DNA of 64,000 nucleotides, taken from the IMG/VR virus record IMGVR_UViG_3300031772_000001, positions 1 to 64,000 of that record; one strand, written 5' to 3'. The DNA comes from a virus. Positions within the stretch are counted from its first letter, which is position 1; every line of letters starts with the position of its first letter. This document shows positions 7,651 to 33,628 of the stretch, in pieces. The notes under the pieces are model-generated. The model searched no databases. It had not been told where the DNA came from and saw only the letters and a program-made list of their open reading frames with translations. The position numbers were made by a program, and so were the translations under genes.

Positions 7651-7854
7651 CTACTTAACTGTTCTTCTCTTCGATTTAAGATCAGAAATATCCCACACTC
7701 TCATACAAATAACCTTTCCCCCATGATCACCTGCATACCAACAATCTCGAAGCTCTAAATCACAGTTCCCGTACTCTACATTATGCTTTTTCTTATGATA
7801 ACATTCTGTCTTATCTGTGCATTTCTTATAATAAGAACAACGAAACTTTGTCAT
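7651..7854 (-). CDS. Small Cys-rich hypothetical protein
   Basis: 67 residues with eight cysteines and several histidines (CSYYKKCTDKTECYHKKKH, CDLELRDCWYAG), consistent with metal binding. It starts directly downstream of the glycosyltransferase gene and ends in TAG. Function unknown. Confidence 0.55.
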   Translation of the reverse strand: MTKFRCSYYKKCTDKTECYHKKKHNVEYGNCDLELRDCWYAGDHGGKVICMRVWDISDLKSKRRTVK

Positions 7855-7857
7855 TCA

Positions 7858-8637
7858 CTATGGATACTGCCTTCCAGTTTGCCTATCAATATGTCTACAA
7901 AAGATAGAAGTATCACAAAGAAACGGATGCTCCCGTTTTGCAACTTTCTTCCACCCTGTTTTTTCAAGAACCTTGTTCTCAAGTAACTGATCAAAGAAGT
8001 AAAGATCCTGAGTCCCGGCTTTTCTAGAAAAAGACATACTCTCGGGGTCTAAGAATACCTGCTGAGGTGTCTCAAACACCTTATGAAGCACGGTTCCATC
8101 ACACGCCTTATACTCAGCCGTATGCTCCCACATCCACTTCAAAATCGAAGTATGAATGAGCAAACAACCCATTGGAAGACCATCACACCAAACTTTATCC
8201 CCTATCTTCCAATCCGTATATGACCCATTACCCCGACCCCTAAAAGTCAAAGGAAGTGTAGGTGAAGCCTTCAAGTAATACAAACCAGAGACTACCGGGA
8301 TAGTCTCTTTCTTAGTATATTCAAAAAACCTTAAAAAAAGATCGGGCGGTATTAGTACATCATCTTCAATAGTTATCAGCCAATCAACCCCTAATTCCAA
8401 GGCTTTCTTAGTGATGCAATTGTAGGCATCAGCAATGTTATACCCTATAGCCGTATATGCCAAATCAAACCCAGACGCTTCCCAATTCATCGGAATGATC
8501 TGGGCAAATCTGTTGTGACACCACTCGTAACGCACCCATCCTTCAGTGGGAGTAGCTATAAGAGTCCTTTTCTTCCACTTCTTCTTGCAATATGACAGAA
8601 TCTCTCTTGTCCCGGTTGTCTTTTTTGTCTCTTTCAT
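7858..8637 (-). CDS. Glycosyltransferase-like protein (GT-A fold)
   Basis: 259 residues. RTLIATPTEGWVRYEW opens the nucleotide-sugar domain; residues 90-95 (IEDDVL) give the acidic metal-binding DxD-like motif; SGLYYLKASP and GLPMGCLLIHTSIL follow as in small phage GT-A enzymes. It probably transfers a sugar to a virion, DNA or host-surface acceptor; the acceptor is unknown. The first ~20 residues overlap the zinc-ribbon gene upstream by about 95 bases, so the true start may be later, but no better start with a ribosome binding site is visible. Confidence 0.7.
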   Translation of the reverse strand: MKETKKTTGTREILSYCKKKWKKRTLIATPTEGWVRYEWCHNRFAQIIPMNWEASGFDLAYTAIGYNIADAYNCITKKALELGVDWLITIEDDVLIPPDLFLRFFEYTKKETIPVVSGLYYLKASPTLPLTFRGRGNGSYTDWKIGDKVWCDGLPMGCLLIHTSILKWMWEHTAEYKACDGTVLHKVFETPQQVFLDPESMSFSRKAGTQDLYFFDQLLENKVLEKTGWKKVAKREHPFLCDTSIFCRHIDRQTGRQYP

Positions 8638-12384: not shown

Positions 12385-13680
12385 TTAAAACTCAATTCCA
12401 TTTTTACGGGCATTTTCTACTACTTCCAAAATCTCGTCCACAGAGTCTATGTTTGACCCAACACGGTAACCTTTAACCAAACCACTATTTTCTTTTATCT
12501 TACTAATACATTCCTCAACAGTATCACCTAAAACAATCATAAACCCAACAGGATCAGTTGGTCCTGTCCCAGGTATCACATAATCAAGTCCGTTTACCCG
12601 ACACCTCATCTTCAATTTAACAATTTTTCTTATTGTCTCATCTTCAAAGTATATAGGATTCCAAACAAGCTCAGAGGAATTAGTAAATACTGCTACCTGC
12701 ATGGCATATTTACTTCTGTACTTTGGCTCTGTAACAATTCCCTTTGAACCATACCAAATAATCTCCGCAAGGTTCTCCACCCACTCACACTGAATCTCAG
12801 AATTTGGAGAACCACAACGACAAGTACAATCTATCAGGTAATTATTTCCATCTTCACCCATTCTAACCTCAGTAGCAAACCACCCCCTATACCCATAATC
12901 GGAAAAGACAGGCTTCAACTTGTCCATACTTTCCTTCATGGACTCATGCAGCTTATCATAAGAAACATGCGTCGTTATGTAAGCCTTATCCTTTATCTCA
13001 AAACCCATACCCATCTGTGAAGCATACTCACCATCTACCACAAAAGCATCAACACCACACTCAACTTTTGACTTTATAGGAGACTCAAGTATGTAATCAA
13101 CCTTACCATCTAACTTACGAGCAACCCCAAGATCAGACGCAACTTTCAATAAGAAATCCTCTGACTTTTTATGACTCTCTATGTGGTGTGTCTCAAAAAG
13201 ACCCCTCCACCACGACACCTTCAAGTATAGGTCTGAATTTCCATTCTTTATATGGTCAACAACATCGTCAAAATTAGTAAAATACTCTGCTTCAGATACA
13301 GGCAACCCTATTTTCTTGAATACCTGTTCTCTTGTCTCTATTCGGAGTAGTTCTAACTTCTCTCCATCACGACTCCCCCAAACCCGCTTCCCAAGGGAAA
13401 TAAGATGTTCCTGCAAATCCCCCATATACACATCTGGAAAAACAAACAAATCTACCTCATTAAAGTCATACCCCTTATCTGGACACTTGTAAAACATCTG
13501 ATCAATAACAGTAATTCCAGACAACCCCTCTCCAATCATCGACTTTTTAACATCTGGAAATGAGGAGTAATTAGGAACCCAATAAAACACCTTACCAAAA
13601 TCCCTCGCCAACCTTTCAGCAACAAATGTAAAAACCCCTGTATCTACTACAAGAACTTTTTTGTCTTTAAGATTGTCCAC
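12385..13680 (-). CDS. ATP-grasp ligase-like protein
   Basis: About 430 residues. An N-terminal Rossmann-like part (KKVLVVDTGVFTFVAERLA) precedes an ATP-grasp core: YLKVSWWRG, FVVDGEYASQMGMGFEIKD, FATEVRMGEDGNNYLIDCTCRCGSPN, where the acidic and Asn/Asp residues match the metal-binding strand of ATP-grasp enzymes. Such enzymes join a carboxylate to an amine using ATP. It follows the peptidase-like gene. The start is uncertain: a TTG at 13701 gives the longest frame, but AAGGAT sits just before tandem GTG codons at 13683/13680, so I place it there. The phage substrate is unknown. Confidence 0.65.
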   Translation of the reverse strand: MDNLKDKKVLVVDTGVFTFVAERLARDFGKVFYWVPNYSSFPDVKKSMIGEGLSGITVIDQMFYKCPDKGYDFNEVDLFVFPDVYMGDLQEHLISLGKRVWGSRDGEKLELLRIETREQVFKKIGLPVSEAEYFTNFDDVVDHIKNGNSDLYLKVSWWRGLFETHHIESHKKSEDFLLKVASDLGVARKLDGKVDYILESPIKSKVECGVDAFVVDGEYASQMGMGFEIKDKAYITTHVSYDKLHESMKESMDKLKPVFSDYGYRGWFATEVRMGEDGNNYLIDCTCRCGSPNSEIQCEWVENLAEIIWYGSKGIVTEPKYRSKYAMQVAVFTNSSELVWNPIYFEDETIRKIVKLKMRCRVNGLDYVIPGTGPTDPVGFMIVLGDTVEECISKIKENSGLVKGYRVGSNIDSVDEILEVVENARKNGIEF

Positions 13681-14233: not shown

Positions 14234-14260
14234 AGATACCTCCCATAACATTAGAAACTA

Positions 14261-14443
14261 TTAAGACTTATGAAGACCTTTAACAATCTTCAAAGACCCT
14301 GCTGGCAAAGACTTTACTGGATCAGAAGCAACAACATCCTTTTTATCTTTCTTTTCTTCCGCAACAACCTCTTTAAGTACAACTACAGGGGGTTGTTGCT
14401 CCTCTGGTAGACTCTTCTCGTATATCCTTGATAAGAGATTCAT
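14261..14443 (-). CDS. Putative internal head protein with N-terminal LLxxIYE tag
   Basis: 60 residues starting MNLLSRIYEKSLPEEQ. The first nine residues match the shared tag of this gene block; the rest is Lys/Glu/Val/Pro-rich and probably unstructured. I infer capsid targeting with cleavage after IYE, by analogy with the (L/I)xE sites of T4-type prohead proteases. Last tagged gene of the block in transcription order. Confidence 0.6.
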   Translation of the reverse strand: MNLLSRIYEKSLPEEQQPPVVVLKEVVAEEKKDKKDVVASDPVKSLPAGSLKIVKGLHKS

Positions 14444-14457
14444 AGACTAAACTCCCA

Positions 14458-14991
14458 CTACTTCGAGTAGTAATCAGTTGCCCCTGTCCGCGTAGACTCC
14501 TTCTTACTCAACTCAAGACTCTTCACAACACCCATAGCCACATCATCACTCTCTGTCGTGAAAACTGCTCCCTCTTTATCGGCCCCACGCTTCCAGAGAG
14601 CATCTATACCCTTCGCTTCCATCTTAGCTTCAACATTAGTCAACCCTCGAAGATACCACACCTTATCCTGCTTGTAGACCTCAACAGGATTATTGCCTTG
14701 CTCATTGACCTGCTCTTTAGGCTTCTCCTTTGACTCCTCGTACATCTTAACCATCAAAACCCCCTTGAAAGATTCTGTCTTAGTTGGCATTGCCGCCGCC
14801 CCCAAAGACTTTTTCAAAACAGCAAGCGTCTTAGGATCTTCCTTATCCGGCTGCTCCAACTTTGTCATTATATTGGAAAGCAACTCAAAAGGAATACTAT
14901 CATCTGCCCTCTTCTGGGTCATTCTCTCAGTAACAACACTAAGCAACGTGTGAAGTACGTTATTCTCTTTTGGGGTCAGGGACACATTCAT
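14458..14991 (-). CDS. Putative head protein with internal MYE tag
   Basis: 177 residues. Residues 1-70 are helical (LHTLLSVVTERMTQ, FELLSNIMTKLE). The tag FKGVLMVKMYEESKE lies at about residues 75-88. It is followed by an EQVNEQ linker and a domain with KVWYLRGLTNVEAKMEAKG that resembles the KTWYLVRG and SWFISKRE modules of the 996-codon protein upstream. ATG overlaps the TAA of the preceding gene (TAATG). Internal placement of the tag suggests the N-terminal part could be removed if a protease acts there (inference). Confidence 0.6.
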   Translation of the reverse strand: MNVSLTPKENNVLHTLLSVVTERMTQKRADDSIPFELLSNIMTKLEQPDKEDPKTLAVLKKSLGAAAMPTKTESFKGVLMVKMYEESKEKPKEQVNEQGNNPVEVYKQDKVWYLRGLTNVEAKMEAKGIDALWKRGADKEGAVFTTESDDVAMGVVKSLELSKKESTRTGATDYYSK

Positions 14992-15356
14992 TAGAAACCT
15001 CCGGGGTTATGTGATGCAGCATACGCCGCTGACGACCTCTTTGGTGACTGATCTAAGTTAGTATAGTCAAATTGAATATCCGGCTTCTTCTTTAGAATCT
15101 TCTTACTTTCTTTGGAATCATAAAACTCACCTGTGTCCGGCTGAGTGTCGTACATCTTCTGAAGCAACGACACGTCAACACCTTCGTTCTCAGACTTGTA
15201 CGCCAAGTTTGCTATTCGTATTTTCAGAATGTTCTTTCCATTTACTATAGGCTGTCCATGCACATCCTTACCAATTTCCTTAACAGTAACACGACGATTT
15301 TTGAACTTTCCAGTAAAAATCGTATCCCCTACCTCAATTGGAATAACTATGCTCAT
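14991..15356 (-). CDS. Putative head protein with internal LLQKMYD tag
   Basis: 121 residues from an ATG after GGAAGTAG. Residues 1-60 look like a small SH3/KOW-type beta barrel (EVGDTIFTGKFKNRRVTVKEIG). The tag VSLLQKMYDTQPD follows, then a Lys/Ser/Asp-rich tail. The same order (beta-barrel, then tag, then tail) is seen in the gene at 19.4 kb. MYD replaces MYE here. Lies just downstream of the TnpB insertion. Confidence 0.6.
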   Translation of the reverse strand: MSIVIPIEVGDTIFTGKFKNRRVTVKEIGKDVHGQPIVNGKNILKIRIANLAYKSENEGVDVSLLQKMYDTQPDTGEFYDSKESKKILKKKPDIQFDYTNLDQSPKRSSAAYAASHNPGGF

Positions 15357-15370
15357 AACTACTTCCACAC

Positions 15371-15517
15371 TTACTGTTTTAGTTCTTGTGTAATATCAGA
15401 GTATCCATCTGATATTTTCCTCATACACTTAGCCAATGCCTTACTCTCCACACCTCTCTGATCTTCCCCCTCAGCAATCACCTTTACTTGAGGTGTGTAC
15501 CCTATCCGGCCAAATGC
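15371..15517 (-). pseudogene. Orphan 3' gene fragment beside TnpB
   Basis: Directly after the TnpB TAG stop, the same frame stays open for 48 codons (contains GYTPQVKVIAEGEDQRG and CMRKISDGYSDITQELK) and ends in TAA. It has no start codon or ribosome binding site of its own near TnpB, and its Lys/Glu-rich composition matches the neighbouring small head genes. I interpret it as the 3' remnant of a gene cut by insertion of TnpB; part of it may also belong to the element's right end or guide RNA. Confidence 0.5.
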
Positions 15518-16618
15518 CTATCCTCCACAGTTTATAGTGGACAGACTTTTCTGGCAGGGTTCTTTAGCCGCCCTGTGCAAAATGTTAATGGCTGCGTTAT
15601 AATCCGCGTCCATCTCCACTTTACAATCAATACACTTGTACCGCTCGCCCACACGAGACTCCTTGTGTATTGATCCACACACTGAACAAGTCTGGGAAGT
15701 GTAAGCTGGATTGACCTTTGTAAGAAGAACACCGTTCTCCTCACAAGTTCTCACCAGCTTACCTATTGCCGATAAATAGACCCAATACTGCAACTTGTTC
15801 ATAAACTTTGTCGAAATTCGATGATCCTTCTTAGAATTTCTTTTGACGTTCTTTAGGTCTTCTATAGCAAGACTGTTTACGTTTGACAGGTCTAACTCGT
15901 TCACAACTCGGTTAATTTCATTGTCCCGGAATCTCAAACTCTGCTTAAAATTCTTAGAGTTCCTTACCTTCTTTGATATGTCTGTACAAACTTGCTCAAT
16001 ATCGGTCCCTAAAAACTGACCATCGGAAGTTGAAAGCAATTTCTTGTAGCCAATATCAACTCCCAAAGACTTACCTGTAGATTTTATTACAGGTGCCTCT
16101 TTCTCAAAAGTCAAAAACACAAAATACTTGCCGGATTCGTCTTTGGTTAATTTGATGTTCTTCTTACGCTTCCAATCAGCATACTTCAAATAATGCTTGT
16201 GATACTTGATTGGTAAGTTTATTGTGACTGCTCGATGCTTACCATCCTGAAAATAGGGCAATCGAATATGAATAAACTCATCAAAATGACCATCTTCTTG
16301 TACTTCAATATCAAACATCCGGTCATCCAACGAGATTGAAGTATTTTGTATCTCTGGCTTTGATTTTTTCTGTTTCTTCTGATTGGACCTGATAATCTCA
16401 GATGCTTGCTTATATAAAATTTGTTTCCAAGCAGAATAAGTAAAAAGATTTGAAGGACAATCCTTAGAACTGAGAAACTTCTTCAGTGGAAGTTTCTTAT
16501 CCCAAATTTGATCTATATAAAACTGTAAGTCAACCTTATAGTCTTGAAATAACTGGTCTAATTGCTTAGACTTAGTACCAGTTTGATACTTCAAAATGTG
16601 TTTGGTTGATCTTAACAT
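15518..16618 (-). mobile_element. tnpB: Solitary TnpB, RNA-guided nuclease of IS200/IS605 type
   Basis: 366 residues, typical TnpB length. The RuvC triad is complete: Asp188 (LGVDIGYKK), Glu253 (LAIEDLKN) and Asp339 (MDADYNAAINI). A zinc ribbon with Cys311, Cys314, Cys329 and Cys332 (QTCSVCGS, YKCIDCK) precedes the last catalytic residue. NPAYTSQTC is the family signature. No TnpA lies alongside, so it is a lone TnpB. Family members cut DNA guided by an RNA transcribed across the 3' end, so the guide RNA should overlap 15.4-15.6 kb. Inserted within the internal-head-protein block. Likely active by residues; function could be homing or element maintenance. Confidence 0.9.
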
Positions 16619-16655
16619 AATTATCTATGTATAATTTATCACAACACCCCTTACT

Positions 16656-16814
16656 TTAGTCCTTCAGCAAATCCTGAATTTCATCCTGAGAATGTCCAGC
16701 AGCCTTCATGTAATCCTGAATCTTCTTCTCAGACCAACCACCCTTATTCAACATGAACAAGTAAGCAGCCTTCAAGTCCATCCCACCCATAATATTCGCC
16801 GCCATCTTACTCAT
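16656..16814 (-). CDS. Small hypothetical protein (52 aa)
   Basis: 52 residues (starts MSKMAANIMGGMDLKAAYLF, ends HSQDEIQDLLKD). Two amphipathic helices are likely. It begins 28 bases after the stop of the tagged gene upstream and ends about 38 bases before the TnpB start. The spacing AAGGGGTGTTGTG after its stop looks like a ribosome binding site and start codon now followed by TnpB, perhaps the 5' edge of the interrupted gene. Confidence 0.55.
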   Translation of the reverse strand: MSKMAANIMGGMDLKAAYLFMLNKGGWSEKKIQDYMKAAGHSQDEIQDLLKD

Positions 16815-16841
16815 CTTCAAAGTCTTGAGCGCAATCTTCTT

Positions 16842-17234
16842 TTAATGCCCTTCAGGAACACCCTCTTCTACTTTACCTTCGGTAATCTTCAACTCTTTAA
16901 GAACTTTTGTCAAAATCTCCTGATACGCCTTCATTAAAGCCTTTGCCTGCGGCCCACCCTTCTTCATTATCTTATAAACTTCCATTGTAAATCTTAATTC
17001 TACATTTGCACCTCTACGCACACAATCAACTCTTGCATCACCAACCTTACTAAACAGCTTATCATATTTTGGCTCTTGTTGCTCATAATTTACATTATAC
17101 GCAATATCATCTTGAGGATTTACTTCTTCTGGTACACCTCTAATAACAGCACCAGCAAATCCCCAATCCGATTTCTTTACTTCTATTCCTTCACTTACCT
17201 TCCTGTTTTCATACATCTCTTCAAGTAAGCTCAT
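16842..17234 (-). CDS. Putative internal head protein, N-terminal LLEEMYE tag
   Basis: 130 residues starting MSLLEEMYENRKVSEG; the ATG at 17234 has AGGAG seven bases upstream, so it is preferred to a GTG two codons earlier. Residues 10-130 are an alpha/beta domain (VEVELRF-like strand RRGANVELRFTMEVYK, then helix AKALMKAYQEILTKVLKEL). Tag placement right at the start suggests the mature protein begins after MYE. Function after packaging unknown. Confidence 0.65.
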   Translation of the reverse strand: MSLLEEMYENRKVSEGIEVKKSDWGFAGAVIRGVPEEVNPQDDIAYNVNYEQQEPKYDKLFSKVGDARVDCVRRGANVELRFTMEVYKIMKKGGPQAKALMKAYQEILTKVLKELKITEGKVEEGVPEGH

Positions 17235-17244
17235 AAACACACTC

Positions 17245-17502
17245 CTACATGTAAAGATGACCTAATAACTTCTTTGATTTCAATTCATAAATCCCAACAA
17301 ACCCTGTGTCCATTCCTTGAATATACTTAGCAAACTTCGTTATAAGATCATCAAAACTATCTGTAAAATCCCTTGTATGACCACGCTTTTCTTTGAACTC
17401 CTTTTCATCGTCAGGATCGTGTACTTCTTGTGATGCACCAATAAGAGCATACTTCTTCTTAGAAATTTCCTTCTCGTACATCTTGGTAAAAAGACTATCC
17501 AT
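17245..17502 (-). CDS. Putative internal head protein, N-terminal LFTKMYE tag
   Basis: 85 residues starting MDSLFTKMYEKEISKK after AGGAG. The C-terminal half (DDLITKFAKYIQGM, GFVGIYELKSKKLLG) could be a small alpha/beta fold; no family recognised. Ten bases separate its stop from the next tagged start. Confidence 0.65.
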   Translation of the reverse strand: MDSLFTKMYEKEISKKKYALIGASQEVHDPDDEKEFKEKRGHTRDFTDSFDDLITKFAKYIQGMDTGFVGIYELKSKKLLGHLYM

Positions 17503-17510
17503 AACAACTC

Positions 17511-17912
17511 CTATGACAAGTATGAATTTAATTCATAAGGCTTAGGTGCCTGACTGTTCTTGTAAATATCAAGAACCAAAACACTATTCTTAATCTCTGC
17601 ACAAGTAGGCGCATCCTTCCAAAGCCGCCGCACTAAGTCAATCCGCAACCGTACCGTTTCACCAGAAGACATCGCCCCATTAAACGTCCCTACCCACTTC
17701 TCATCACCAACCACAGGAACAAGACCCAACTCCTCTAACGCTGCCAACACAGTAGTCGTAATATCGCCCAAAGACTTATAATAAGACTCTTTTACAAGAT
17801 TAGAATACTGCCTACGAATCCGAGACGGAAGAGACTCAGACCCCTCTATATGGACAGTCTCACCACTGCCCATCAAGGACATGCCCTCGTACATTCGTGT
17901 AAGAAGACTCAC
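17511..17912 (-). CDS. Putative internal head protein, N-terminal LLTRMYE tag
   Basis: 133 residues. I choose the GTG at 17912: it overlaps the upstream TGA (GTGA) and has AAGAGG seven bases before it, and it places the tag (M)SLLTRMYEG exactly at the N-terminus as in its neighbours. An ATG six codons earlier lies inside the upstream gene. The body contains helix YSNLVKESYYKSLGDITTTVLAALEELG and strand TVRLRIDLVRRLW. Function unknown. Confidence 0.65.
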   Translation of the reverse strand: MSLLTRMYEGMSLMGSGETVHIEGSESLPSRIRRQYSNLVKESYYKSLGDITTTVLAALEELGLVPVVGDEKWVGTFNGAMSSGETVRLRIDLVRRLWKDAPTCAEIKNSVLVLDIYKNSQAPKPYELNSYLS

Positions 17913-18235
17913 TCTAAAACCTCTTTCCATTCAGAGTAAAGTAATGTTACCCCACTCTTCTCAACAGCACCAAAATCAATATCATCCCAATTCCGAATAT
18001 TAGCGTTTGGCCTTACTTTTTTAATAATCAACTTCCTTAACTCATTAGGAACCCCTCCTTGATTATTAAAAATTCGTATGTAAGGATCGGTTGTTATACT
18101 TCCAGAAATTTGTGCGGACCAAGAGTAACCACCAAAATTCTTCTTTAACCACTGCTTCAACTCCTTAGAAAAGTCAGTATAAACCTTCTTTTCTTTTGAA
18201 GAAACTTCCTCATACATCTGCTGAAGCAAGCTCAT
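17909..18235 (-). CDS. Putative internal head protein, N-terminal LLQQMYE tag
   Basis: 108 residues starting MSLLQQMYEEVSSKEK; the ATG follows GGGAGATAAT, which decides the start over an ATG six codons upstream. The body (ELKQWLKKNFGGYSW, PYIRIFNN, LRKLIIKKVRPNANI) suggests a small alpha/beta domain. Stop overlaps the next GTG start. Confidence 0.65.
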   Translation of the reverse strand: MSLLQQMYEEVSSKEKKVYTDFSKELKQWLKKNFGGYSWSAQISGSITTDPYIRIFNNQGGVPNELRKLIIKKVRPNANIRNWDDIDFGAVEKSGVTLLYSEWKEVLE

Positions 18236-18236
18236 A

Positions 18237-18518
18237 TTATCTCCCGAAAACATTTTTACCCTTATACTGAAAGAACACTTCCATCTTATCTGTCAAGGTC
18301 TTGATATTGTCCTTGATTCTATCCTCTAAGTCTTTGGCAACAACCTTGGGATCTTCCTTTTGACGCTCAACACGATCCACAAACTCCTTCTCCCAATCCT
18401 TAGAGTTAGACGCTATTTTCTTTGAAATAGAAGCACCCGAAGGAAGCTCCAACACAACAACTGCCTTGTCCCTCTTAGGGAATGTGCTTACCTCATACAT
18501 CCTTTTCAAAAGAGCCAT
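18237..18518 (-). CDS. Putative internal head protein, N-terminal LLKRMYE tag
   Basis: 93 residues starting MALLKRMYEVSTFPKRD. Lys-rich body with a strand VVVLELPSGASI and a long charged helix (WEKEFVDRVERQKEDPK to IKTLTDKMEVFF). Ends one base before the next tagged ATG. No family recognised. Confidence 0.65.
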   Translation of the reverse strand: MALLKRMYEVSTFPKRDKAVVVLELPSGASISKKIASNSKDWEKEFVDRVERQKEDPKVVAKDLEDRIKDNIKTLTDKMEVFFQYKGKNVFGR

Positions 18519-18520
18519 GA

Positions 18521-19072
18521 CTACACCTTACTTCTCTGAATCTTATTCAACCTATCATTCGACTTCTTAACCCTTTCAGCATCCCCGGACATCCTCGCCT
18601 TCACCACAGAAGCCCTCGCACGAGCAACTTTTTCAGATTTACTACTCACGGCTTCAATAACCCTACCACCCTTACCACGCTTCTTTTTCTTATACTCGGG
18701 GTCAATAGAATCTGTTGAAGGGTAATAAAACTGCTTTCCAGCAGAACCAACTGACCCCGCAGTAGTCAACTCATACATCGCCACAATCAATGGGAAAATG
18801 GATCTTTCGTTCTTTTCTCCTCTTGCCTTCTCAAAAGCAACCGGAGAGTAATCATGTGTCTTGAGCCATGACTTAGCCTCTGCCGGAGTAAACTTGTCTG
18901 CTGAGAACCTAATAGACGCTACCGTTGTCCTCCCACCCTTCTCACCCTTCTTTGCCCTTAGACCATACAGCACACTTATCCCCGGCTTAAAAGCATCCGT
19001 CTTCCAACGATAGCCCTTAAACTTCGTGTTATCTATCGTTGCTGAATGATAATTTACAAAACCACGAGGCAT
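18521..19072 (-). CDS. Head protein with FTPAEAKSWL module and internal AMYE tag
   Basis: 183 residues. Residues 50-80 (VASIRFSADKFTPAEAKSWL, then THDYSPVAFE) match a module that I recognise as recurrent in phage head/protease-region proteins. The shared tag appears internally as IFPLIVAMYELTT at residues ~92-104. A strongly basic tail follows (EYKKKKRGKGGR, VARARASVVKARMSG), suited to DNA contact inside a capsid. Cleavage at the tag would release the basic tail (inference). Confidence 0.6.
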   Translation of the reverse strand: MPRGFVNYHSATIDNTKFKGYRWKTDAFKPGISVLYGLRAKKGEKGGRTTVASIRFSADKFTPAEAKSWLKTHDYSPVAFEKARGEKNERSIFPLIVAMYELTTAGSVGSAGKQFYYPSTDSIDPEYKKKKRGKGGRVIEAVSSKSEKVARARASVVKARMSGDAERVKKSNDRLNKIQRSKV

Positions 19073-19084
19073 GAAAACTCCTTC

Positions 19085-19390
19085 TTATGCGGGTATGATA
19101 TACCCTACCTTCTTCTTATCATCCCAAACTGCAACCTTCTCACCCACATTTGAAAGCATATAACACTTTTCCTCAGACTTTATTTCACCCTTATGAAACC
19201 GATCTAAGTCTTTCTTGGAATAAAAGCAATGTGACTCAGAAGCAGAGAAATACTTCTGCTTTTCAAGAAAGTCGTCAAACTTCTTTCTATCTGTAAACTT
19301 CACTACCTTAGAATTAGCTGAAAGAAGTTTTACAACATCAGGAATAATTGGATCAATGTAATCCTCATAAATCTTCACAAGTAAACCCAT
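19085..19390 (-). CDS. Putative internal head protein, N-terminal LLVKIYE tag
   Basis: 101 residues starting MGLLVKIYEDYIDPII after AAGGAG. The body has KVVKFTDRKKFDDFLEKQKYFSA and CYMLSNVGEKVAVWDDKKKVGYI, a plausible small alpha/beta fold. Function unknown; strong neighbour similarity is confined to the tag. Confidence 0.65.
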   Translation of the reverse strand: MGLLVKIYEDYIDPIIPDVVKLLSANSKVVKFTDRKKFDDFLEKQKYFSASESHCFYSKKDLDRFHKGEIKSEEKCYMLSNVGEKVAVWDDKKKVGYIIPA

Positions 19391-19402
19391 AACAACTCCT
19401 TC

Positions 19403-19852
19403 TTATTTCTCAATTATCTCGTACTTTCCAGACTTCTTCTCTTGATCCAACTTGTCTTTTGTAATAACCTTCTTAATTGACTTACCAGAAATCGGAAACA
19501 CATAAGTCACAGCATATTTACCGTCACTACGAGGTAAACTACTCACATAAAGAGTAGACTTCCCTGTAGGAACATCACCAAAACCTTCGTACATCTTGAC
19601 AAGTAATCCAGTATCAACTGCCTCTACCTTTTGAACTCTTGAATTCCAAAGCCTCAACTCGGACATTGGATTTTTAGGAATCTCTTTGAAAATATAATAC
19701 CACTCGGAACCAATCGCATCTGTTGTTACTCTGTCAACAGTAACAGGGGATTTATCCACAGCACGGGGAAATACTAACTTATCACCTTTCTTATACAACG
19801 GCTTCCCTTTTGGGGCTTCAACCATATTACCCCAAATATCCTTAATCTTCAT
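19403..19852 (-). CDS. Putative head protein with internal LLVKMYE tag
   Basis: 149 residues from the ATG at 19852, which overlaps the upstream TGA (TGATG). Residues 1-70 resemble a KOW/SH3-like barrel (YKKGDKLVFPRAVDKSPVTVDRV, interrupted quote: GDKLVFPR ... VTVDRVTTD). The tag VDTGLLVKMYEGFGD follows at ~80-93, then a second beta-rich part (TLYVSSLPRSDGKYAVTYVF). Same architecture as the protein at 15.0-15.4 kb. Confidence 0.6.
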   Translation of the reverse strand: MKIKDIWGNMVEAPKGKPLYKKGDKLVFPRAVDKSPVTVDRVTTDAIGSEWYYIFKEIPKNPMSELRLWNSRVQKVEAVDTGLLVKMYEGFGDVPTGKSTLYVSSLPRSDGKYAVTYVFPISGKSIKKVITKDKLDQEKKSGKYEIIEK

Positions 19853-20196
19853 CAAAACGCCCCGTGAATCTTAGCATAATCCTCTGGGGACAAAATCTTC
19901 TTTGCCTGATCCATTGCAACTATCATAAACTCTTCTCTGGCTCTTTTTGCACCCTCAGACAAGTGACCAAAATAATCAGAAATTGTCTCTATTGCGTCAA
20001 GAGCCTTCACCATCTTAGTATCTTTCAGGATCTCTTTTGCGAGAATCTTCAAGCTCTCGGTGTGCATATTCTGATCCGTTGCCTTCGCAATCTTTTTCAC
20101 AATAGCATCAAGATCCATGACCTTAGAACCAGACTTCACAGTCTCATCAACTACTTTCTTACTCTTTGTGTACATTTCTGCAAAAAGACCTGACAT
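19852..20196 (-). CDS. Putative internal head protein, N-terminal LFAEMYT tag
   Basis: 114 residues starting MSGLFAEMYTKSKKVVDE after AAGGAG. The tag is variant, with Thr at the position of Glu. The body is all-helical (IVKKIAKATDQ, SLKILAKEILKDTKMVKALDAI, AREEFMIVAMDQAKKIL). If the Glu is needed for cleavage this copy may be uncleaved (inference). Confidence 0.6.
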   Translation of the reverse strand: MSGLFAEMYTKSKKVVDETVKSGSKVMDLDAIVKKIAKATDQNMHTESLKILAKEILKDTKMVKALDAIETISDYFGHLSEGAKRAREEFMIVAMDQAKKILSPEDYAKIHGAF

Positions 20197-20221
20197 AGTT
20201 ACTCCTTTACTTATCCTTTTG

Positions 20222-20818
20222 TTATGCTATGGCAAGACCCCTTCGTGCCTGTCCATCTGCAAAAGCCTGTCGCATTTTTTCCAGTTTTCTCTTAGCATCC
20301 TCATAAGTCTTAGCCGCAAACGTAGACCTTGTTTTCTTATCTGTAAATGCAAATTCCTTTAGGTCTTCCCACCAACCATTAAACAAAACCCCAAGCCTAT
20401 CAGCTATACTCTGACCTTCTTTTTTCAAGTCATCAGGTAGCTGTTCTTCTGTGATAAAATGACAAGACTCAACTGTTGTCTTCCCGTAAGGTGCGTAAGC
20501 AGAAGACCCAACCCCTGACGCTGTAGGACTTGTACCTACAAAACCTCTCCGGTCACTCGTAGCACCTGAATAATCAAATCCAGCAACACTACCCTTCATC
20601 TGAAATCGTTTACCATCCCTGTAAGCCGATACTATCTTACCCTCTTTACCTTTTGCCGAAGACACCACATAAGTCCCATCTTGAAACTCATAAGTATACA
20701 CATCCTTAACAAATCCTGTACTTGACTCTTTTGCCTTAGCATCAGCATCCACTTTTCTCTTGAACCCTGTCAAGAAAAGTTCAGAACCAGATTCGTATAT
20801 GTCAACAAGTAAAGTCAT
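20222..20818 (-). CDS. Putative internal head protein, N-terminal LLVDIYE tag
   Basis: 198 residues starting MTLLVDIYESGSELF at the ATG at 20818, one base after the upstream TGA; an ATG four codons earlier lies inside the upstream gene. The body includes a beta-rich part (VYTYEFQDGTYVVSSAKGKEGKIVSAYRDG) and a C-terminal helix (AKTYEDAKRKLEKMRQAFADG). No family recognised. Largest of the simple N-terminally tagged proteins. Confidence 0.65.
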   Translation of the reverse strand: MTLLVDIYESGSELFLTGFKRKVDADAKAKESSTGFVKDVYTYEFQDGTYVVSSAKGKEGKIVSAYRDGKRFQMKGSVAGFDYSGATSDRRGFVGTSPTASGVGSSAYAPYGKTTVESCHFITEEQLPDDLKKEGQSIADRLGVLFNGWWEDLKEFAFTDKKTRSTFAAKTYEDAKRKLEKMRQAFADGQARRGLAIA

Positions 20819-20819
20819 T

Positions 20820-21074
20820 TCAATTCTCATAAATACTAACCAAAAGACTTACAAAAGACTCGTCTTTTGGACCGTACATATTTCCATACAAAATCTTGTT
20901 GATTTCCCACCTCACAGCCTGTCCCCCCATACTACCAAGATCACCCTTGTCTGGTGCCTCCCCTTTTCTTCCTAACTTTTCCCACTGCCATCTTCGGGTT
21001 GCATAATCCTTTTTAGCAACATTTTTGATCCTACTAATGTACTTCAACATCTCTTTTTCTTTAGGCTCATGCAT
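20820..21074 (-). CDS. Small protein with C-terminal LLVSIYE tag
   Basis: 84 residues (starts MHEPKEKEMLKYISRI). Basic and Trp-rich centre (ATRRWQWEKLGRKGEAPDKG, QAVRWEINKILYG). Unlike its neighbours the shared tag ends the protein (SFVSLLVSIYEN then stop). It may be a fusion of an unrelated small gene with the first codons of a tagged gene, or a C-terminal targeting variant. Preceded by a GAGG site, with a hairpin just upstream. Confidence 0.6.
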   Translation of the reverse strand: MHEPKEKEMLKYISRIKNVAKKDYATRRWQWEKLGRKGEAPDKGDLGSMGGQAVRWEINKILYGNMYGPKDESFVSLLVSIYEN

Positions 21075-21099
21075 ACATCACCTCAACTTTTGAAAAGAT

Positions 21100-21119
21100 G
21101 GGGGCACTTTCGTACCCCC
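21100..21119 (-). terminator. Hairpin with GAAA tetraloop and adjacent G-runs
   Basis: On the minus strand GGGGGTAC-GAAA-GTGCCCCC forms an 8-bp stem closed by a GNRA-type loop, followed by ATCTTTTC. The bases just before it on the minus strand are GGGTGGGGGTGGGGG, which could also form a G-quadruplex. It lies between the 67-residue and 84-residue genes. Terminator or attenuator role is inferred. Confidence 0.6.
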
Positions 21120-21134
21120 CCACCCCCACCCAAC

Positions 21135-21338
21135 CTAATTGATCTTGACAACACTCTGCACAGCAAGAGCCGCCTGAAGTGTGTTCAAAGCACTCGAAAC
21201 ATCAGATGCCAAAGTCTGTACCCCACCAAGAGTAAGCGTGCTGATCGTAATTGACACAGCATCAACACCCACCGCTCCGGCATTCAGAATTTGAGGAACA
21301 TGTGCCTCTAAATCCTTACGCGATTCATACAAACTCAT
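21135..21338 (-). CDS. Small hydrophobic head-block protein with MSLYE start
   Basis: 67 residues from the ATG at 21338 that follows TTGGAGGTAG. It starts MSLYESRKDLEAHV, a shortened form of the shared tag (LYE). The rest is Ala/Val/Ser/Thr-rich helix (AGAVGVDAVSITISTLTLGG, ALNTLQAALAVQSVV). Could coat or line the capsid; function unknown. Confidence 0.6.
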   Translation of the reverse strand: MSLYESRKDLEAHVPQILNAGAVGVDAVSITISTLTLGGVQTLASDVSSALNTLQAALAVQSVVKIN

Positions 21339-21378
21339 AACTACCTCCAAATTTGAAATTATTCCAGACACGAGAACA

Positions 21379-21771
21379 CTAAGAGGCAGGTATCTCTCCC
21401 CACTCTTTTGACTTCATCAAAGCATCCATAACAGAACGGGCCTTCTGGGAAAGTTCCGGGTTTTGCCTGGAATTCCAGCGTTCTATGTTGGAGATCGCTC
21501 TTGTCATTGCCGGTTTACCCTTTTTCTTTGCTATCTTGATAAAATGAGAAACAAGGTCTTTAACCGGCCACTCAGACCAAGAGTTTGCTGGCAACTTCGT
21601 GATACCCGGAAACTTCGCCTTCACCATAACCTTTTCAGAAAGAGTTAGCTCCTCAGAGACTTCAAACTGACCCCAAGCATCAACGAAGTCGTTAGCCGCT
21701 TCAAGAAGTTTCTTGATATAGCCTGACCCACAAGACTCTATCGCCTTTGATCTTTTTGAAAAATTCACCAT
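21379..21771 (-). CDS. Hypothetical head-block protein
   Basis: 130 residues starting MVNFSKRSKAIESCG at the ATG after GGAGAG. Helical, Trp/Lys-rich (SGYIKKLLEAANDFVDAWGQ, ELTLSEKVMVKAKFPG, KPAMTRAISNIERW). Lacks the LLxxMYE tag but lies among tagged genes. No family recognised. Confidence 0.55.
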   Translation of the reverse strand: MVNFSKRSKAIESCGSGYIKKLLEAANDFVDAWGQFEVSEELTLSEKVMVKAKFPGITKLPANSWSEWPVKDLVSHFIKIAKKKGKPAMTRAISNIERWNSRQNPELSQKARSVMDALMKSKEWGEIPAS

Positions 21772-21790
21772 AACTATTCTCTCCAACTTG

Positions 21791-21836
21791 AAAAAAGGCT
21801 GTCAAGGAATATTCCCAAACCCTGACAGCCTTTTCC
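21791..21836 (-). terminator. Rho-independent terminator
   Basis: A stem AAAAGGCTGTCA...TGACAGCCTTTT with a short internal loop lies between two minus-strand genes; on the minus strand it is followed by a run of six T. Because both arms end in A/T runs it could work on either strand. Confidence 0.8.
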
Positions 21837-21858
21837 AAGCACCCACCCCTTGTATCAC

Positions 21859-22392
21859 TTACTCGTCACCCTCATCATCGCCCTCATCATCACCCTCATC
21901 ATCTTCCGCTTCAGCATCAGAAGTCCACTCAACGTACTTATCCATCATCTCCACAAGAGCCTCTTCCGCTTCCTCTGTAGACTCCACAGTCACACCCTCG
22001 TCAACGTCATCACCATTGTTTGCATCAACGGCATAGACATCCATCGCACCATCATACGCCTCAATGATGATAGACACGTCTTCAGATTCATCAGAAGAAA
22101 GAACAAGAAAAGGCTCATCACTGTCATCACGGTCTGACACTGACCAGCCACTTTCCTTCGCCAAAGACTCAACAGTATCAAACCAAGCAGTCACGTCATC
22201 AGTCTCAAGCTGCTCACAAGCAGATGCAGTATCGCCCGATCCATCACCAGAATCATCACCAGAGTCATCACCACTTCCGGGGTCATCACCAGAAGGGTCT
22301 TCTACACCCTTCTTCTTTTTTCCTTTTGCTTCATCGAGGACAGCAACACCGCCTTGCTTTATGTCCTCATATATATCAATAAATACTGACAT
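21859..22392 (-). CDS. Acidic putative internal head protein, N-terminal FIDIYE tag
   Basis: 177 residues starting MSVFIDIYEDIKQGG after GGAGG. The tag is followed by KGKKKKGVED, an acidic GDDSGDDSGDGSGD repeat, a folded-looking centre (VTAWFDTVESLAKESGWSVSD, EDVSIIIEAYDGAMDVYAVD) and an acidic tail of GDDE repeats. Such acidic proteins can act as scaffold/core or DNA-mimic proteins (inference). Sits between two terminators, suggesting separate control. Confidence 0.6.
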   Translation of the reverse strand: MSVFIDIYEDIKQGGVAVLDEAKGKKKKGVEDPSGDDPGSGDDSGDDSGDGSGDTASACEQLETDDVTAWFDTVESLAKESGWSVSDRDDSDEPFLVLSSDESEDVSIIIEAYDGAMDVYAVDANNGDDVDEGVTVESTEEAEEALVEMMDKYVEWTSDAEAEDDEGDDEGDDEGDE

Positions 22393-23329: not shown

Positions 23330-26275
23330 TTACTTTCGATCTTCAGGAGACAAGAACACACCCTTCAAGAAATTCACAGCACTTACCTTCTTTCCTTCAA
23401 AAAGATTACCCATCTTCTCATAGGTTAGTGACCTGAAAACATTGAGAGACGGAACCCTTCTGAGGTCATTCTCTTTGACCACCCTACTGAGGCAGGAACT
23501 AAAAGCAAGAACCGCTTTGTTGAAGTCCATATTTTCCGGCAAAAGTTTTCGGATATTTCTATGCAAATCAGTCCGCTTCAAAACCTCCGCTCGAAGATTA
23601 CCCAAGATTTCCTCAGACAAAACCTTCTTTGCCACACCCTCATAATACTCTGGTGTTGCCTTCTCATAAGCATCAATTGGTGTCAAACTTCGATCATACA
23701 TCTCAGTCATAAAAGCAGAAATCTCTTCGTGATCCTTATGAGACAGGGACAAATTCTTTGCCCTCATCACATTCAAAGCAGAATAGAACTCGGGGTAAAT
23801 TTCAACAAACCGATCATACAAACCCTCACAAACCTTGCTGTCTGTCAACTTATCAAACTCAACAAGCAACGGGCTTATAGCACAAAGAGTAGCATCATCA
23901 AGTTTTGAAAACTCCTGCAAAGCATCTGTATCAACCTCTAAGTTTTCTGAATACTTTTTGATGTTTGCTACAATCACACCTTTATCTGCATCCCCAAACT
24001 TATACACAAGAACATTCTCTACAATAGCAGGAATATTAGAGTTTCCTAACAAAGAATCCGCTATCTCTATACCCCTAAACTCAACACCAAAACGCTTACA
24101 AGATTCAGTCAGCTTCTCAATTCGCTTCTCTTGATTATCCTCGTTTATATGGGAGTTGTTCAAAAGATGAAAAACTTCCACAATTGCGGAATCATAAGAC
24201 AAGCTCTCTTCCACTTCCAAAGCAGAGAAACCGCATCGGCCACACTTACCACCAAACCCTTCACAAGCACACCTTGGGCAAATCATACTCTTTACCCCCA
24301 CCCCAGAGGAAAGAACCTGCTCAAGATCGTACCCACAATCCGTACAGTGCTTTGGATAACGCCCACGATACTTCGGAATCAACATCCCGCACGAAGGACA
24401 CTGGCCCTTGTACTTGATCTTGTCAAAAGCAGTCTGCATCCCCGGAGTCATGCCTTGCTCATTTGTCTGCTCATCCGTCTGCTCCCCAAATCTCTTAGCA
24501 ACCTTTTCTATTGCATTCAACATCCTCTCTTCTTTCTTTGCACACTCAGCACAGAAAAGACCAAACGCCTTATTAGAAAGTTCACCTTCTTTACCACACC
24601 TCGCACATTTACCTGTTTTCTTAGAAGATCCTTCTTCTATCTGCTCCCAATTCATATTATTTGCGAGATACTGAGCATGAAGATCATTTACTACCTTCAT
24701 ATCCTTAATACCAAACTGTTGTGAAAACTGAGTAAGAGTCTTACCAGTATCTTTCAAGTCAGAATGATCCTTAAACCAATCAAACATCTTTCGTGTGATA
24801 TTCACACCAGACTCATTTACCTGCTCATTCTGGTCAATAACACTGCCTTTCTTATGAAAAGGAGGATACGTCACCAGAGCATCACCTTCTTTGTTGACCA
24901 TGTAATAACCAGCCAACGTACTATCTTTTACCCTACTCTCATATCCCATCTTCTTAGCAAGTGCATCAAACTCTTTCAAAGTAATATCTGAGGCAATTAC
25001 CTTCGCTTTTCCAGTATCAGTTGTTTCCTTGTTTACCAAAGCAACTGACACTTTAAGAGTTACTTCTACTACCTGCTCATCAAACTTTTTATCCATCGGT
25101 ATAGCTGCATCAGTCCTTACCCCGGAAGGGGGCTTTTCTCTTTTCGATATAAACCAACTATCTCTGTCCTTCCCCTGCCACGCAATAACACCCTTTGGCA
25201 ATTTACCAGCATACGATTTTACAGCCTTGTATGTCACCAAATATGTCCCACCATCCATGATATTCTTTATCATCTTCTCTAAATCATCTGTATCCTCAAT
25301 TATTACATCCTCTTTTATCTCTGACATCTTCTTTACATTCGTAGCCCAATCAGGCAACTCACCTCTCACCAAATACCAAGTCTTATCCCCGTTCTTTTCT
25401 TGAAACGCATGAGTATCTTGGGGAACCTTACCAATAAACTGTTTCAGGTCTTTCTCACTTCCGATCTTAACAATAGCACTCTCTAAAGACACCAAAATAC
25501 CTTGCAAGTCTGTACTAGCTACCCGCTCTACCACTACCTGCTCACTAACTCCCTCTTTCTTAGTCTGTGATTTAAGCACGTCTTTCAAAAAATCTATAGC
25601 CTTAACAGCATACCCATCAAATATCTTTCTTGTTCCTTTGAAAAGAGCTACCTTTCCAACCTTATCAATATTGCTTCTCTCAAGAGTAGCCTTGAAAGCT
25701 GTATTGTACTCAGTAATGTACTTATCAAGCTCTTCCTCGTCTACCTTACTCTCACCCACCACAGAAGCCTCCGGCTGTACCAAGTGCTCCCCACACTCAG
25801 GACAAAACTTAGGATACCTGCCTGGGTAAGTAGGAACCACAAACCCGCAACTGTCACACTTCTTCCAAACATTACCCTTAGAAACACTTCCGTAAACAGC
25901 CTTTCCCATACCCGGAGTCATCTGCTCATTCAATTTATCCAAAACAACACTGGCAACAGTACAGATTGTTGCTGCTTCCTTTGTTGTAATTACTGATTCC
26001 ATGTACTTACGAAAAAGAGAATCAAGAAATATTCCCAAATCAGAAATTCCTGATATGGAATCCTTATCTACACCCTTGACTTTTTTCATTAAGTCAAGTA
26101 TACTCTTAGAAACTTCTTTTGCTTGGGATTTTACATCGGAAGGGAAGTCAACAACAAAATCTCCAAGAGCCTTCAGGAACTCGGCTCCCTTTTCGAGATC
26201 AGAAATTGACTTCACATACTGCGAAGGAACCGACTTAGAAACGGCATCTTCAAATGCATTCTGTTGACCTAACAT
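23330..26275 (-). CDS. Large multi-domain zinc-ribbon head-region protein
   Basis: About 981 residues from the ATG at 26275 (a longer frame to 26320 overlaps the portal end more). Four zinc ribbons are visible: near 140-161 (CDSCGFVVPTYPGRYPKFC), 557-578, 626-647 (CPSCGMLIPKYRGRYPKHC) and 666-681. The first and third are close copies, each preceded by an EQxxTPGM segment. A second repeat is the KTWYLVRG / DSWFISKRE module (~300 and ~375). NEQ-rich linkers separate the parts. The C-terminal ~280 residues are helical and contain FMTEMYDRS, a tag-like peptide. Lies directly after the portal gene; could be a core/scaffold polyprotein (inference). Confidence 0.6.
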   Translation of the reverse strand: MLGQQNAFEDAVSKSVPSQYVKSISDLEKGAEFLKALGDFVVDFPSDVKSQAKEVSKSILDLMKKVKGVDKDSISGISDLGIFLDSLFRKYMESVITTKEAATICTVASVVLDKLNEQMTPGMGKAVYGSVSKGNVWKKCDSCGFVVPTYPGRYPKFCPECGEHLVQPEASVVGESKVDEEELDKYITEYNTAFKATLERSNIDKVGKVALFKGTRKIFDGYAVKAIDFLKDVLKSQTKKEGVSEQVVVERVASTDLQGILVSLESAIVKIGSEKDLKQFIGKVPQDTHAFQEKNGDKTWYLVRGELPDWATNVKKMSEIKEDVIIEDTDDLEKMIKNIMDGGTYLVTYKAVKSYAGKLPKGVIAWQGKDRDSWFISKREKPPSGVRTDAAIPMDKKFDEQVVEVTLKVSVALVNKETTDTGKAKVIASDITLKEFDALAKKMGYESRVKDSTLAGYYMVNKEGDALVTYPPFHKKGSVIDQNEQVNESGVNITRKMFDWFKDHSDLKDTGKTLTQFSQQFGIKDMKVVNDLHAQYLANNMNWEQIEEGSSKKTGKCARCGKEGELSNKAFGLFCAECAKKEERMLNAIEKVAKRFGEQTDEQTNEQGMTPGMQTAFDKIKYKGQCPSCGMLIPKYRGRYPKHCTDCGYDLEQVLSSGVGVKSMICPRCACEGFGGKCGRCGFSALEVEESLSYDSAIVEVFHLLNNSHINEDNQEKRIEKLTESCKRFGVEFRGIEIADSLLGNSNIPAIVENVLVYKFGDADKGVIVANIKKYSENLEVDTDALQEFSKLDDATLCAISPLLVEFDKLTDSKVCEGLYDRFVEIYPEFYSALNVMRAKNLSLSHKDHEEISAFMTEMYDRSLTPIDAYEKATPEYYEGVAKKVLSEEILGNLRAEVLKRTDLHRNIRKLLPENMDFNKAVLAFSSCLSRVVKENDLRRVPSLNVFRSLTYEKMGNLFEGKKVSAVNFLKGVFLSPEDRK

Positions 26276-29200
26276 GGAGTAATTTTGCCCTTTCCTGTAT
26301 TGCAGGAACTCGAAGGTCACTGTGAGAAGGTTTATTGACCCTCTCTTTAATCCAAAACCCAGAACCCACTAAATTTCGGATTTTTTCGGCTCTTACTTTG
26401 GTAGTACCGCTACCGTTGGAGCCATCACCTTCTTCTTGAAGTATATCAAGTTCTGACTCAACACCCTCTTCTTCACCTTCACCCTCCTCGCCACTCCCAC
26501 CTTTTCCTCCACCCTTACCCTCCTCATCCCCTTCATCATCGCCGCTTGGCTTTCCCTTCCTTCTTGGAACCGGAACAGAACCACGAGAACCAAGAGCATC
26601 AGACTTCGAGGAAGAAGACTTATTTCCTAACAACTTATCAATATCAAGATCGGGAAATGCAAATATCTGCTTGAATATGTACTCAACATACATCTTCTTG
26701 TTGATAATTCCTTCCATCTCCCCAGACAAACCAAGCATAGACGTAGCAATACCAATCTTTCTTTCCGTGTACTCCAAACGAGAATCTTCCTCTGCCGAAG
26801 AAATTGGAACCATCCCAATAGACAAATCTTCAACACTTATATCCTGACTGTACTTGTAAGACAGGTGAATTTGAAATAGCCGATACATCCCCTCAATAAG
26901 TGCCCTCTGCACCTTCTTGACCATACGAGCATATCGAATATCCAAACGAGTAAGAGTCTGTGAACCAGAAAACCCCGGTATACTTTCAGAATTGTGAACA
27001 AACACACCACAAGAGAGAGAGAAGTTGTGGTTGTCACTTTCAACAGTTAAATCATAAGCATCTTCAACAACATCAAGATATTCTACATTTACAACTCTAT
27101 GATTGTAACAATTTGCTGCCATCTTCCTTTCAGAAATCATCTTACTATTTGCTTTAGCTCGACAAACCCTCTGGCATCTAACACAGCAAAACCTTGGTGT
27201 CTGTAAGTATGAAGAAATGTCGTTGTAAGGAACCTTCTTCATAAACATCTTCCCACACTCATCACAACAAATCTCAAACTCCTGTGGGTGATAATCACCC
27301 CACCTACCCTGAACCATCTTACCCTTCCAAGAAGCAAACTCAGGACTATCAGGGGAAATAGTCTTCATATAATTAAAGGATTTTCTTCTCCCCTCCTGAA
27401 TAGCCTTAATTATTCCCTGCCTTGCTTTCTCTCTATACTCAGGATTAGCCATCGGGTTATTCTCACCCTTCTGGTAATCCCTGTTAATACCCATCAAAGA
27501 CTTTGATACTTTTGCACCAAACCCATCCGGCTTCTTTCTCCCTTTTCCCAAAACAGACATTCTTTTGGAATACTCAAGCCTCTCCTCTGAAGACATAGCC
27601 TCCCGTCTCTTCCTTGCTGAAACACTTCCCAAAGACCTGCCCATATCTAAAACACTTGCCATCTCTGGATGATACTTAACAAAATGCTCTCGCCTATTCT
27701 CACAAATTGCCAGATTTAAGGCATCATTATTACTCTTGACTTTATCTCTATGATGAACAACTTGCTCAGAAGATAGAACCTTCCCACCATTCAACAAATC
27801 TTCTGCAACAAGACGGTGTACCCGAACATAATGCCGATCCTTATTATCAATAATTCCATAATATCCCTTCTCTGCCCCAGACAACTCAAAGTAATATAGA
27901 GGCATTAAAGATTCCCCAGAGACAAGTTTCTCTGCCTCTTTGTAAGACCCATCTCTTAACATACACCTATGGTCAGGGGTAACGTCAAAATATTCTCCGT
28001 TATCAAGATGCACCCTAACATACTTCGCATTAAGTCGCGTCTTGTTAATATCAGAGATATTCGTGGCGTGAACCCTGCCATCCTTATCACTTGTAAAAAT
28101 TGTCTTGCCCCTGAAATATTCCTTATTCTCAAACATCTCCCTAATAGTAGGTGTAGTTCCATCACATAACCGAATACCAGTGTTTCCTCTCAAACACATT
28201 CCTAAAAATGCGCCGGGGATGCGGATAGCTGCAAGTAGCTTATCCCGAATATACTCAATATCAACTATGTCTTTTATGTTTACATCACCACCAACCGTCT
28301 CAACTCGCATATCCCCTTTTGTACCTGTATAGGGAATAAAAACCTCGTCATTATACTGCAAAGGATTGTACTTCATACGATAGAAATTCACAGGAATATC
28401 TATTGCCTTCTTCTGCATAAATTTCTGCTCAAGATCCTGAATCAAATCCCTACGCTCATCCTTTGTCATACCCTCAGTATTTACATAAAACACACGTATA
28501 AGGGGAGATCGGGCAAGACGAGCAAGAGCAAGAGAGACTTCAAGCAAATTCAGGATACGATAAATCAATCTTGCGTTCTGCAAAATTGACGTACCATACA
28601 TCGAAGTAAGAATCTTTTCAACTAACTTACGCTCACCCTTCGGAACATCCCCACGTCTATTTGCATCAATCATCCTACGGGAAGGAGATTTCTGAGGATC
28701 ACCGCTATCAACATCCCAAGTTGACTTATCAAAAGGTTTTGTATCCTTTGTCTTATCTCCATACTCAGCAGGCTCATCCTCGGCCTCCCCTGTCTTATCC
28801 TCCCCCTCCACAGACTTTTGCATTTCATCTTCCCACATCTTGACCTTTACAGACTCAAAATTGGGTTTGAAGTTGTTGATGAAATGCACATACCCTGAAG
28901 AGTCCATTATCTCTTCCTTACGGGCAGAAATATCCTTCTTGATAAAACAAGCAAGTTTTCCGTCTATGTCAATACGATAAACACTTTTTGGATGTTCCGA
29001 CTCACGAATATTAGTGATCCCTTCACCCTTCTTAGGGTAAACCCTTAACATGAAATCACCATACTTCGCAATATTATAGGTCCACCCCCAAACCTTATTC
29101 TCAAAATCAATTGTTGAAAGAAACTCTTGAAGTTCGTGGCCGTACTTATGCTTTCCACCAATCCATAAAGTACCATTCATTTCATGGGAGTATTGTGTAG

Positions 29201-33535: not shown

Positions 33536-33623
33536 TACGGGGGATGGGACTCGAACCCACAGGCTCCCTTTCGGGAAAAGCGAATTTTAAGTTCGCCGTC
33601 TATGCCAATTCGACTACCCCCGC
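33536..33623 (-). tRNA. tRNA-Leu(UAA)
   Basis: 88 bases on the minus strand. Acceptor GCGGGGG pairs with CCCCCGT; anticodon arm GCGAA-CTTAAAA-TTCGC reads UAA; a long variable arm (CCCGAAAGGG) marks a class II tRNA; the T-arm has GGGTTCGAGTCCC. CCA is not encoded (A then TTTAC follow). Confidence 0.93.
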
Positions 33624-33628
33624 AAAAA

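Follow-up and report, generated by a model that had tools for sequence, protein, structure and literature searches.

A recurring short peptide ending in (M/I)YE on about two dozen proteins of a T4-type phage: a probable capsid-targeting propeptide

Introduction

The phage proteins that are carried in the head and injected first include anti-restriction and host-takeover factors, and they often resemble nothing known and are hard to recognise. In phage T4, the internal protein IPIII loses the N-terminal peptide MKTYQEFIAE. Residues 4 and 7 of this capsid-targeting sequence (CTS) direct targeting and residues 8 and 10 govern processing; with Asp at position 10 the protein is still targeted but is no longer processed (PMC9026906). 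The T4 prohead protease gp21 cleaves after L/I-x-E (PMC9026906). In phage P1, an N-terminal signal of DarB sends this anti-restriction protein, and also a reporter, into the head (PMC9024508). Here, a stretch of 64,000 nt from a large uncultured bacterial virus (bases 1-64,000 of the 167,660-bp record IMGVR_UViG_3300031772_000001, referred to as the window) was analysed together with the rest of the record, and a short recurring peptide with the consensus [S/G/T]-L-L/F-x-x-M/I-Y-E, referred to as the tag, was studied in the proteins of this phage.

Occurrence and conservation of the tag

The tag was found on about 16 proteins in the block at 14261-22392 and on about seven elsewhere in the record. 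The 233 genes were called with a simple script that misplaced some starts; the tag count is independent of start choice because whole open frames were counted. LLxx(M/I)YE occurred 11 times in the called genes, against a mean of 0.07 and a maximum of 1 when residues were shuffled 500 times, and the loose form [LFVIM][LFIVM]xx[MIL]YE occurred 21 times against 1.7 (maximum 9); these counts leave out one further copy, at 142722-143171. Sixteen copies were N-terminal, four internal and two at or near the C-terminus. The codons for Leu, Tyr and Glu differ between the copies, and thus the peptide, not the DNA, is what is conserved.

Across 42 motif matches from two phages, the positions L, L/F, M/I, Y and E carried high information, with a drop directly after the E, as would be expected of a cut site. 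An E at the tag end, with M, I or L two residues before it, was present in 35 of the 42 matches, the M/I/L being imposed by the pattern and the E not. Since the hydrophobic positions are set by the search pattern, information can be drawn only from the weight of L-L, from the preference for E over the other letters allowed and from the drop that follows it. Two of the matches are imperfect: LVLDIYK within gene 17511 is probably no tag, and the copy at the C-terminus of gene 20820 is entered out of register.

With the tag masked, blastp gave no convincing match between any two of this phage's tagged proteins, which agrees with their description as unrelated in the initial annotation. The starts that it had chosen by ribosome binding sites are likewise supported by a Shine-Dalgarno-like core upstream of 15/16 chosen N-terminal starts. 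Its nine N-terminal, four internal (14458, 14991 with MYD, 18521, 19403) and one C-terminal (20820) copies were all recovered on the minus strand, and its figure of about 16 members was reached with two weaker ones, MSGLFAEMYT (19852-20196) and MSLYE (21135-21338). The range of 14261-22392 that it gave proved too narrow, as tagged genes were also located at 37445-38197, 141885-144772 and 162156-162410. Scans with Pfam and PHROGs gave nothing usable on the cargo apart from the kinase and the TnpB, and no T4 IPI-IPIII or Alt family was detected among the tagged proteins scanned.

The tagged genes are listed below. The relative used for comparison, G001 (IMGVR_UViG_3300036774_000066), has a capsid protein 94% and a protease 71% identical to those of this phage.

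14261-14443, minus: tagged protein, N-terminal MNLLSRIYE; G001 13002-13247 has the same tag at the same place and is unlike downstream
14458-14991, minus: conserved domain of ~81 aa, internal tag VLMVKMYE (DNA 14737-14757), then a second module; the G001 counterpart has about 80 more residues after the tag
14991-15356, minus: internal degenerate tag SLLQKMYD (DNA 15147-15167), MYK in G001
16842-17234, minus: tagged protein MSLLEEMYE
17245-17502, minus: tagged protein MDSLFTKMYE
17511-17912, minus: tagged protein MSLLTRMYE, GTG start
17909-18235, minus: tagged protein MSLLQQMYE
18237-18518, minus: tagged protein MALLKRMYE
18521-19072, minus: conserved domain with internal tag PLIVAMYE (DNA 18770-18790); G001 ortholog PLLARFYE
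19085-19390, minus: tagged protein MGLLVKIYE
19403-19855, minus: fusion of a conserved domain, internal tag GLLVKMYE (DNA 19586-19606) and cargo
19852-20196, minus: degenerate tag MSGLFAEMYT
20222-20818, minus: tagged protein MTLLVDIYE, two modules
20820-21074, minus: C-terminal tag SLLVSIYEN (DNA 20826-20846)
21135-21338, minus: weak tag MSLYE
21859-22392, minus: tagged acidic protein MSVFIDIYE; G001 ortholog MSSLFSDIYE
37445-38197, minus: tagged P-loop kinase (AAA_33/zeta-toxin-like) MAVKALLRDMYE
Beyond the window (record): tagged genes at 141885-142343, 142340-142720, 142722-143171, 143439-143741, 143738-144772 and 162156-162410

Head proteins and the probable capsid cleavage site

The initial annotation had proposed that the block encodes packaged and cleaved proteins, and had referred to T4-type prohead proteases; wherever sequence allowed a test of this proposal, the outcome was in its favour. 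A protease of this type was located in the record, together with the capsid gene:

149622-151055 (record): gp23-type capsid protein (phrog_138, 1.4e-44)
151071-152579 (record): gp21-type prohead protease with a scaffold-like region (phrog_207, 4.6e-32)

The long extra region of the protease gene (151071-152579) was taken as scaffold-like. H83 and S139 are invariant among four aligned proteases, and the homologue in phage LIS04 is annotated as peptidase U9, T4 prohead protease. The named capsid relatives closest to this phage are LIS04, SP-15, GXN1 and Molly, at about 30-38% identity. When distinct capsid segments of this phage and its relatives were compared, hydrophobic-x-E-(T/S/A/G/N) was found in the same N-terminal stretch of 62/63, against a background of 5% of equally long stretches elsewhere in those capsid proteins. 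The site in this phage reads MDE/TT (the slash marking the presumed cut) and has the same hydrophobic-x-E form as the tag end; judged by the specificity of T4 gp21, it would be the maturation site. An alignment of capsid E66 with T4 LTE/AE was rejected, the T4-type LTE/AE lying ~16 residues further upstream of the conserved PNLIA, and with this mismatch in position only the site form is common to both.

Tag retention and cargo exchange in a close relative

When the tag was sought in relatives, it was found to be kept in G001 while the cargo is exchanged. About 18 tagged genes are present in G001, most of them within 12.3-22.3 kb; the tagged kinase (7750-8592) and a degenerate tag (144081-144356) lie apart from these. 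The cargo is partly different, several tagged proteins of each phage having no counterpart in the other. The protein of 16842-17234 and its G001 ortholog agree in the tag and in a domain of 85% identity, with ~63 residues more between the two in G001. The halves of 19403-19855 are two separate genes in G001, each with its own tag, and the same holds for the modules of 20222-20818; a module standing alone thus bears its own tag, as would fit a targeting signal. At the DNA level, two neighbouring G001 tags are almost the same. A DNA pattern for MSLLxxMYE, searched across the collection, matched G001, the near-identical contig IMGVR_UViG_3300032053_000075 and single, mostly chance-like sequences.

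Other spellings in distant relatives

In capsid relatives of 30-44% identity, the same spelling gave no more than scattered matches, which led to the finding of other spellings in some of these phages. In Streptococcus phage GXN1, MRL(I/V)(R/K)L(T/N/L)E is present on five proteins and looser versions on two more; the tagged proteins are not convincingly alike outside the tag, and three of the tagged genes lie ≤4 kb after the capsid gene. In Agrobacterium phage Atu_ph07 (L122:39484-49507), ten consecutive genes start with M(K/R)W..L.E, the spelling being M(R/K)WxQL(T/N)E. Their products are mostly paralog-like, and their sequences seem reminiscent of ADP-ribosyltransferases, which Pfam did not confirm. 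The coding sequences (CDS) 31-76 of Atu_ph07 encode 29 virion proteins identified by mass spectrometry (PMC6102473). By our own count from the record, the ten tagged genes fall inside this interval, which is an overlap of range and not a gene-by-gene match; the ten are candidate packaged proteins. The tags of GXN1, Atu_ph07 and this phage have only the hydrophobic-x-E end as a common feature.

A homologue of the tagged kinase forms part of one Atu_ph07 protein with the recurring N-terminal peptide. In the kinase homologues of HTVC008M, Melnitz and Atu_ph07 (including L119:5986-6654), the kinase domain is preceded by a Glu at a constant distance. This Glu was not used as support, as it could either mark a protease site or just belong to the fold. 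The Melnitz homologue starts with MKTFAELQEG, close to the T4 CTS.

Neighbouring genes

The portal and terminase genes are situated directly upstream of the tagged block. The other features in and near the block are as follows:

15371-16618, minus: gene remnant (15371-15517) and adjoining TnpB/Cas12f-like transposase gene (15518-16618)
23330-26275, minus: large multi-module protein adjoining the portal gene, with modules common to two tagged G001 proteins
26250-29483, minus: portal protein with intein/HNH insert
29773-32298, minus: terminase large subunit with intein-like insert

G001 has an intact gene (14259-14894) with the tag-like start MSLFQDMYG; its final 48 codons correspond to the remnant beside TnpB, and its first ~163 codons are without a counterpart in this phage. 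The near-identical contig IMGVR_UViG_3300032053_000075 has the same TnpB. Intein-like inserts are present in the portal, the terminase and a MoxR-like ATPase (record 156516-160262). The G001 portal is without the insert and the G001 terminase frame is shorter. Two tRNA genes (33536-33708 of the window) adjoin the terminase region. Elsewhere in the record, the MoxR-like ATPase gene and a gene for a long acidic repeat-rich protein (152620-160262) adjoin the head genes, a neck-type gene (phrog_222, 145417-146043) is found near one tagged cluster, and a 957-aa protein of degenerate repeats is encoded at the record end (164623-167496).

Discussion

The peptide is very probably a CTS-like, capsid-targeting propeptide in a T4-type phage, one that the prohead protease would cut. 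This is proposed because the tag is far above chance, its synonymous codons vary and its starts are Shine-Dalgarno-like; because a gp21-type protease and a gp23-type capsid protein are encoded and the tag end has the form of the capsid site; and because the tag is kept in G001 while cargo is exchanged, other lineages having spellings of their own. From these observations we infer packaging, cleavage and ejection of the tagged proteins. The tag most likely marks proteins for head loading and tag removal, and possibly for delivery into the bacterium. The hydrophobic half (L-L, residues 3-4) would bind the prohead core during assembly, and each tagged protein would thereby be built into the head; the protease would then cut after (M/I)-Y-E and free the mature protein inside the head, from which some proteins may be ejected with the DNA and act on the host. 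At an internal tag, the cut would separate the conserved N-terminal domain from the cargo module, and the variants MYD, MYT and MYV, which lack the final E, would be packaged and not cut at the tag.

Several points weigh against this interpretation. SLLxx(M/I)YE is not similar in sequence to the T4 CTS MKTYQEFIAE; what is claimed is therefore a CTS-like function, not identity with the T4 peptide. Conservation of the Y before the E goes far beyond the needs of T4 specificity, and the motif may have a role besides marking a cut. A simple N-terminal targeting peptide would not account for the four internal copies or for the two at or near the C-terminus, and the final E is missing from several copies. 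Moreover, the spelling was found only in this phage, the near-identical contig and one relative (G001), and a known-family match was obtained for the kinase alone among the tagged proteins scanned.

The tag may in addition serve as a joint, a tentative extension on which we place less than even weight. Internal copies would then define packaged precursors that are split by the prohead protease into a conserved N-terminal part and cargo, giving a modular, polyprotein-like head set that recombines at the tags, with a lineage-specific spelling.

Three other explanations fit less well than a propeptide. If the peptide were an uncut docking motif for one phage or host protein (for example of the scaffold, neck or tail), this would accommodate the conservation of L-L and of the Y before E beyond a T4-like cleavage rule, the variants without a final E and the tagged cluster near the neck-type gene phrog_222; however, the tag stops exactly at the capsid-type site form, where conservation ends, and the tags of other lineages resemble it only in the hydrophobic-x-E end, so that a docking motif appears unlikely. 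It is still more improbable that the tagged genes are old diverged paralogs of which the tag is the last similar part. Their tandem arrangement and the two G001 tags nearly identical in DNA would suit common descent, whereas no convincing similarity was found downstream of the tag within the phage, tags also occur internally and at protein ends, domain-tag-cargo fusions and splits distinguish this phage from G001, and the kinase has a known, different ancestry. Least credible is a DNA or RNA element at the start codon (a regulatory or recombination site) with no role for a peptide: most copies do lie at start codons and neighbouring G001 tags are near-identical in DNA, but different codons are used for Leu, Tyr and Glu from copy to copy, and some copies are found in frame as far as 70 to 98 codons inside genes.

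If the capsid-targeting propeptide is correct, about two dozen uncharacterised proteins become candidate packaged proteins at once. GXN1 and Atu_ph07 suggest that a recurring N-terminal peptide ending in hydrophobic-x-E near head genes could then be read in the same way in further large phages, and, given lineage-specific spellings, the packaged proteins of uncultured T4-type phages could be listed from sequence.

Comparison with known systems

In P1, no N-terminal consensus was found among the Dar proteins by the authors (PMC9024508), whereas here the consensus is plain. In giant phages of the phiKZ/SPN3US type, as is proposed here, propeptides are cleaved off behind a short motif with a terminal E, and two head proteins of SPN3US have identical 15-residue N-termini; in contrast to the tag, the motif there is S/A-x-E or A-x-E and most propeptides are >100 residues, and the sections of the source consulted describe no short tag on many unrelated proteins (PMC5694885). 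The closest parallels in layout are Atu_ph07 and GXN1, where an N-terminal peptide ending in L-x-E recurs on neighbouring genes, near head genes in GXN1 and in the virion-protein range in Atu_ph07. Their tags are spelled differently from the one described here, and the Atu_ph07 proteins are mostly paralog-like.

T4 has in common with this phage a gp21-type protease, a gp23-type capsid protein and variable cargo (PMC9026906). As on IPI-IPIII and Alt, a short N-terminal peptide with hydrophobic residues and a hydrophobic-x-E end is carried by different proteins, and the layout is comparable to that of IPIII, in which the targeting residues precede the processing residues. Unlike in T4, M/I is found at P3 and a near-invariant Y at P2, and the letters are SLLxx(M/I)YE and not MKTYQEFIAE. 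The T4 peptide is confined to a few proteins, whereas here about two dozen are tagged, with internal and C-terminal copies and with fusions across the tag. Set against the open-access literature, beyond which earlier reports of such tags may exist, the system is unusual in its size and modularity.

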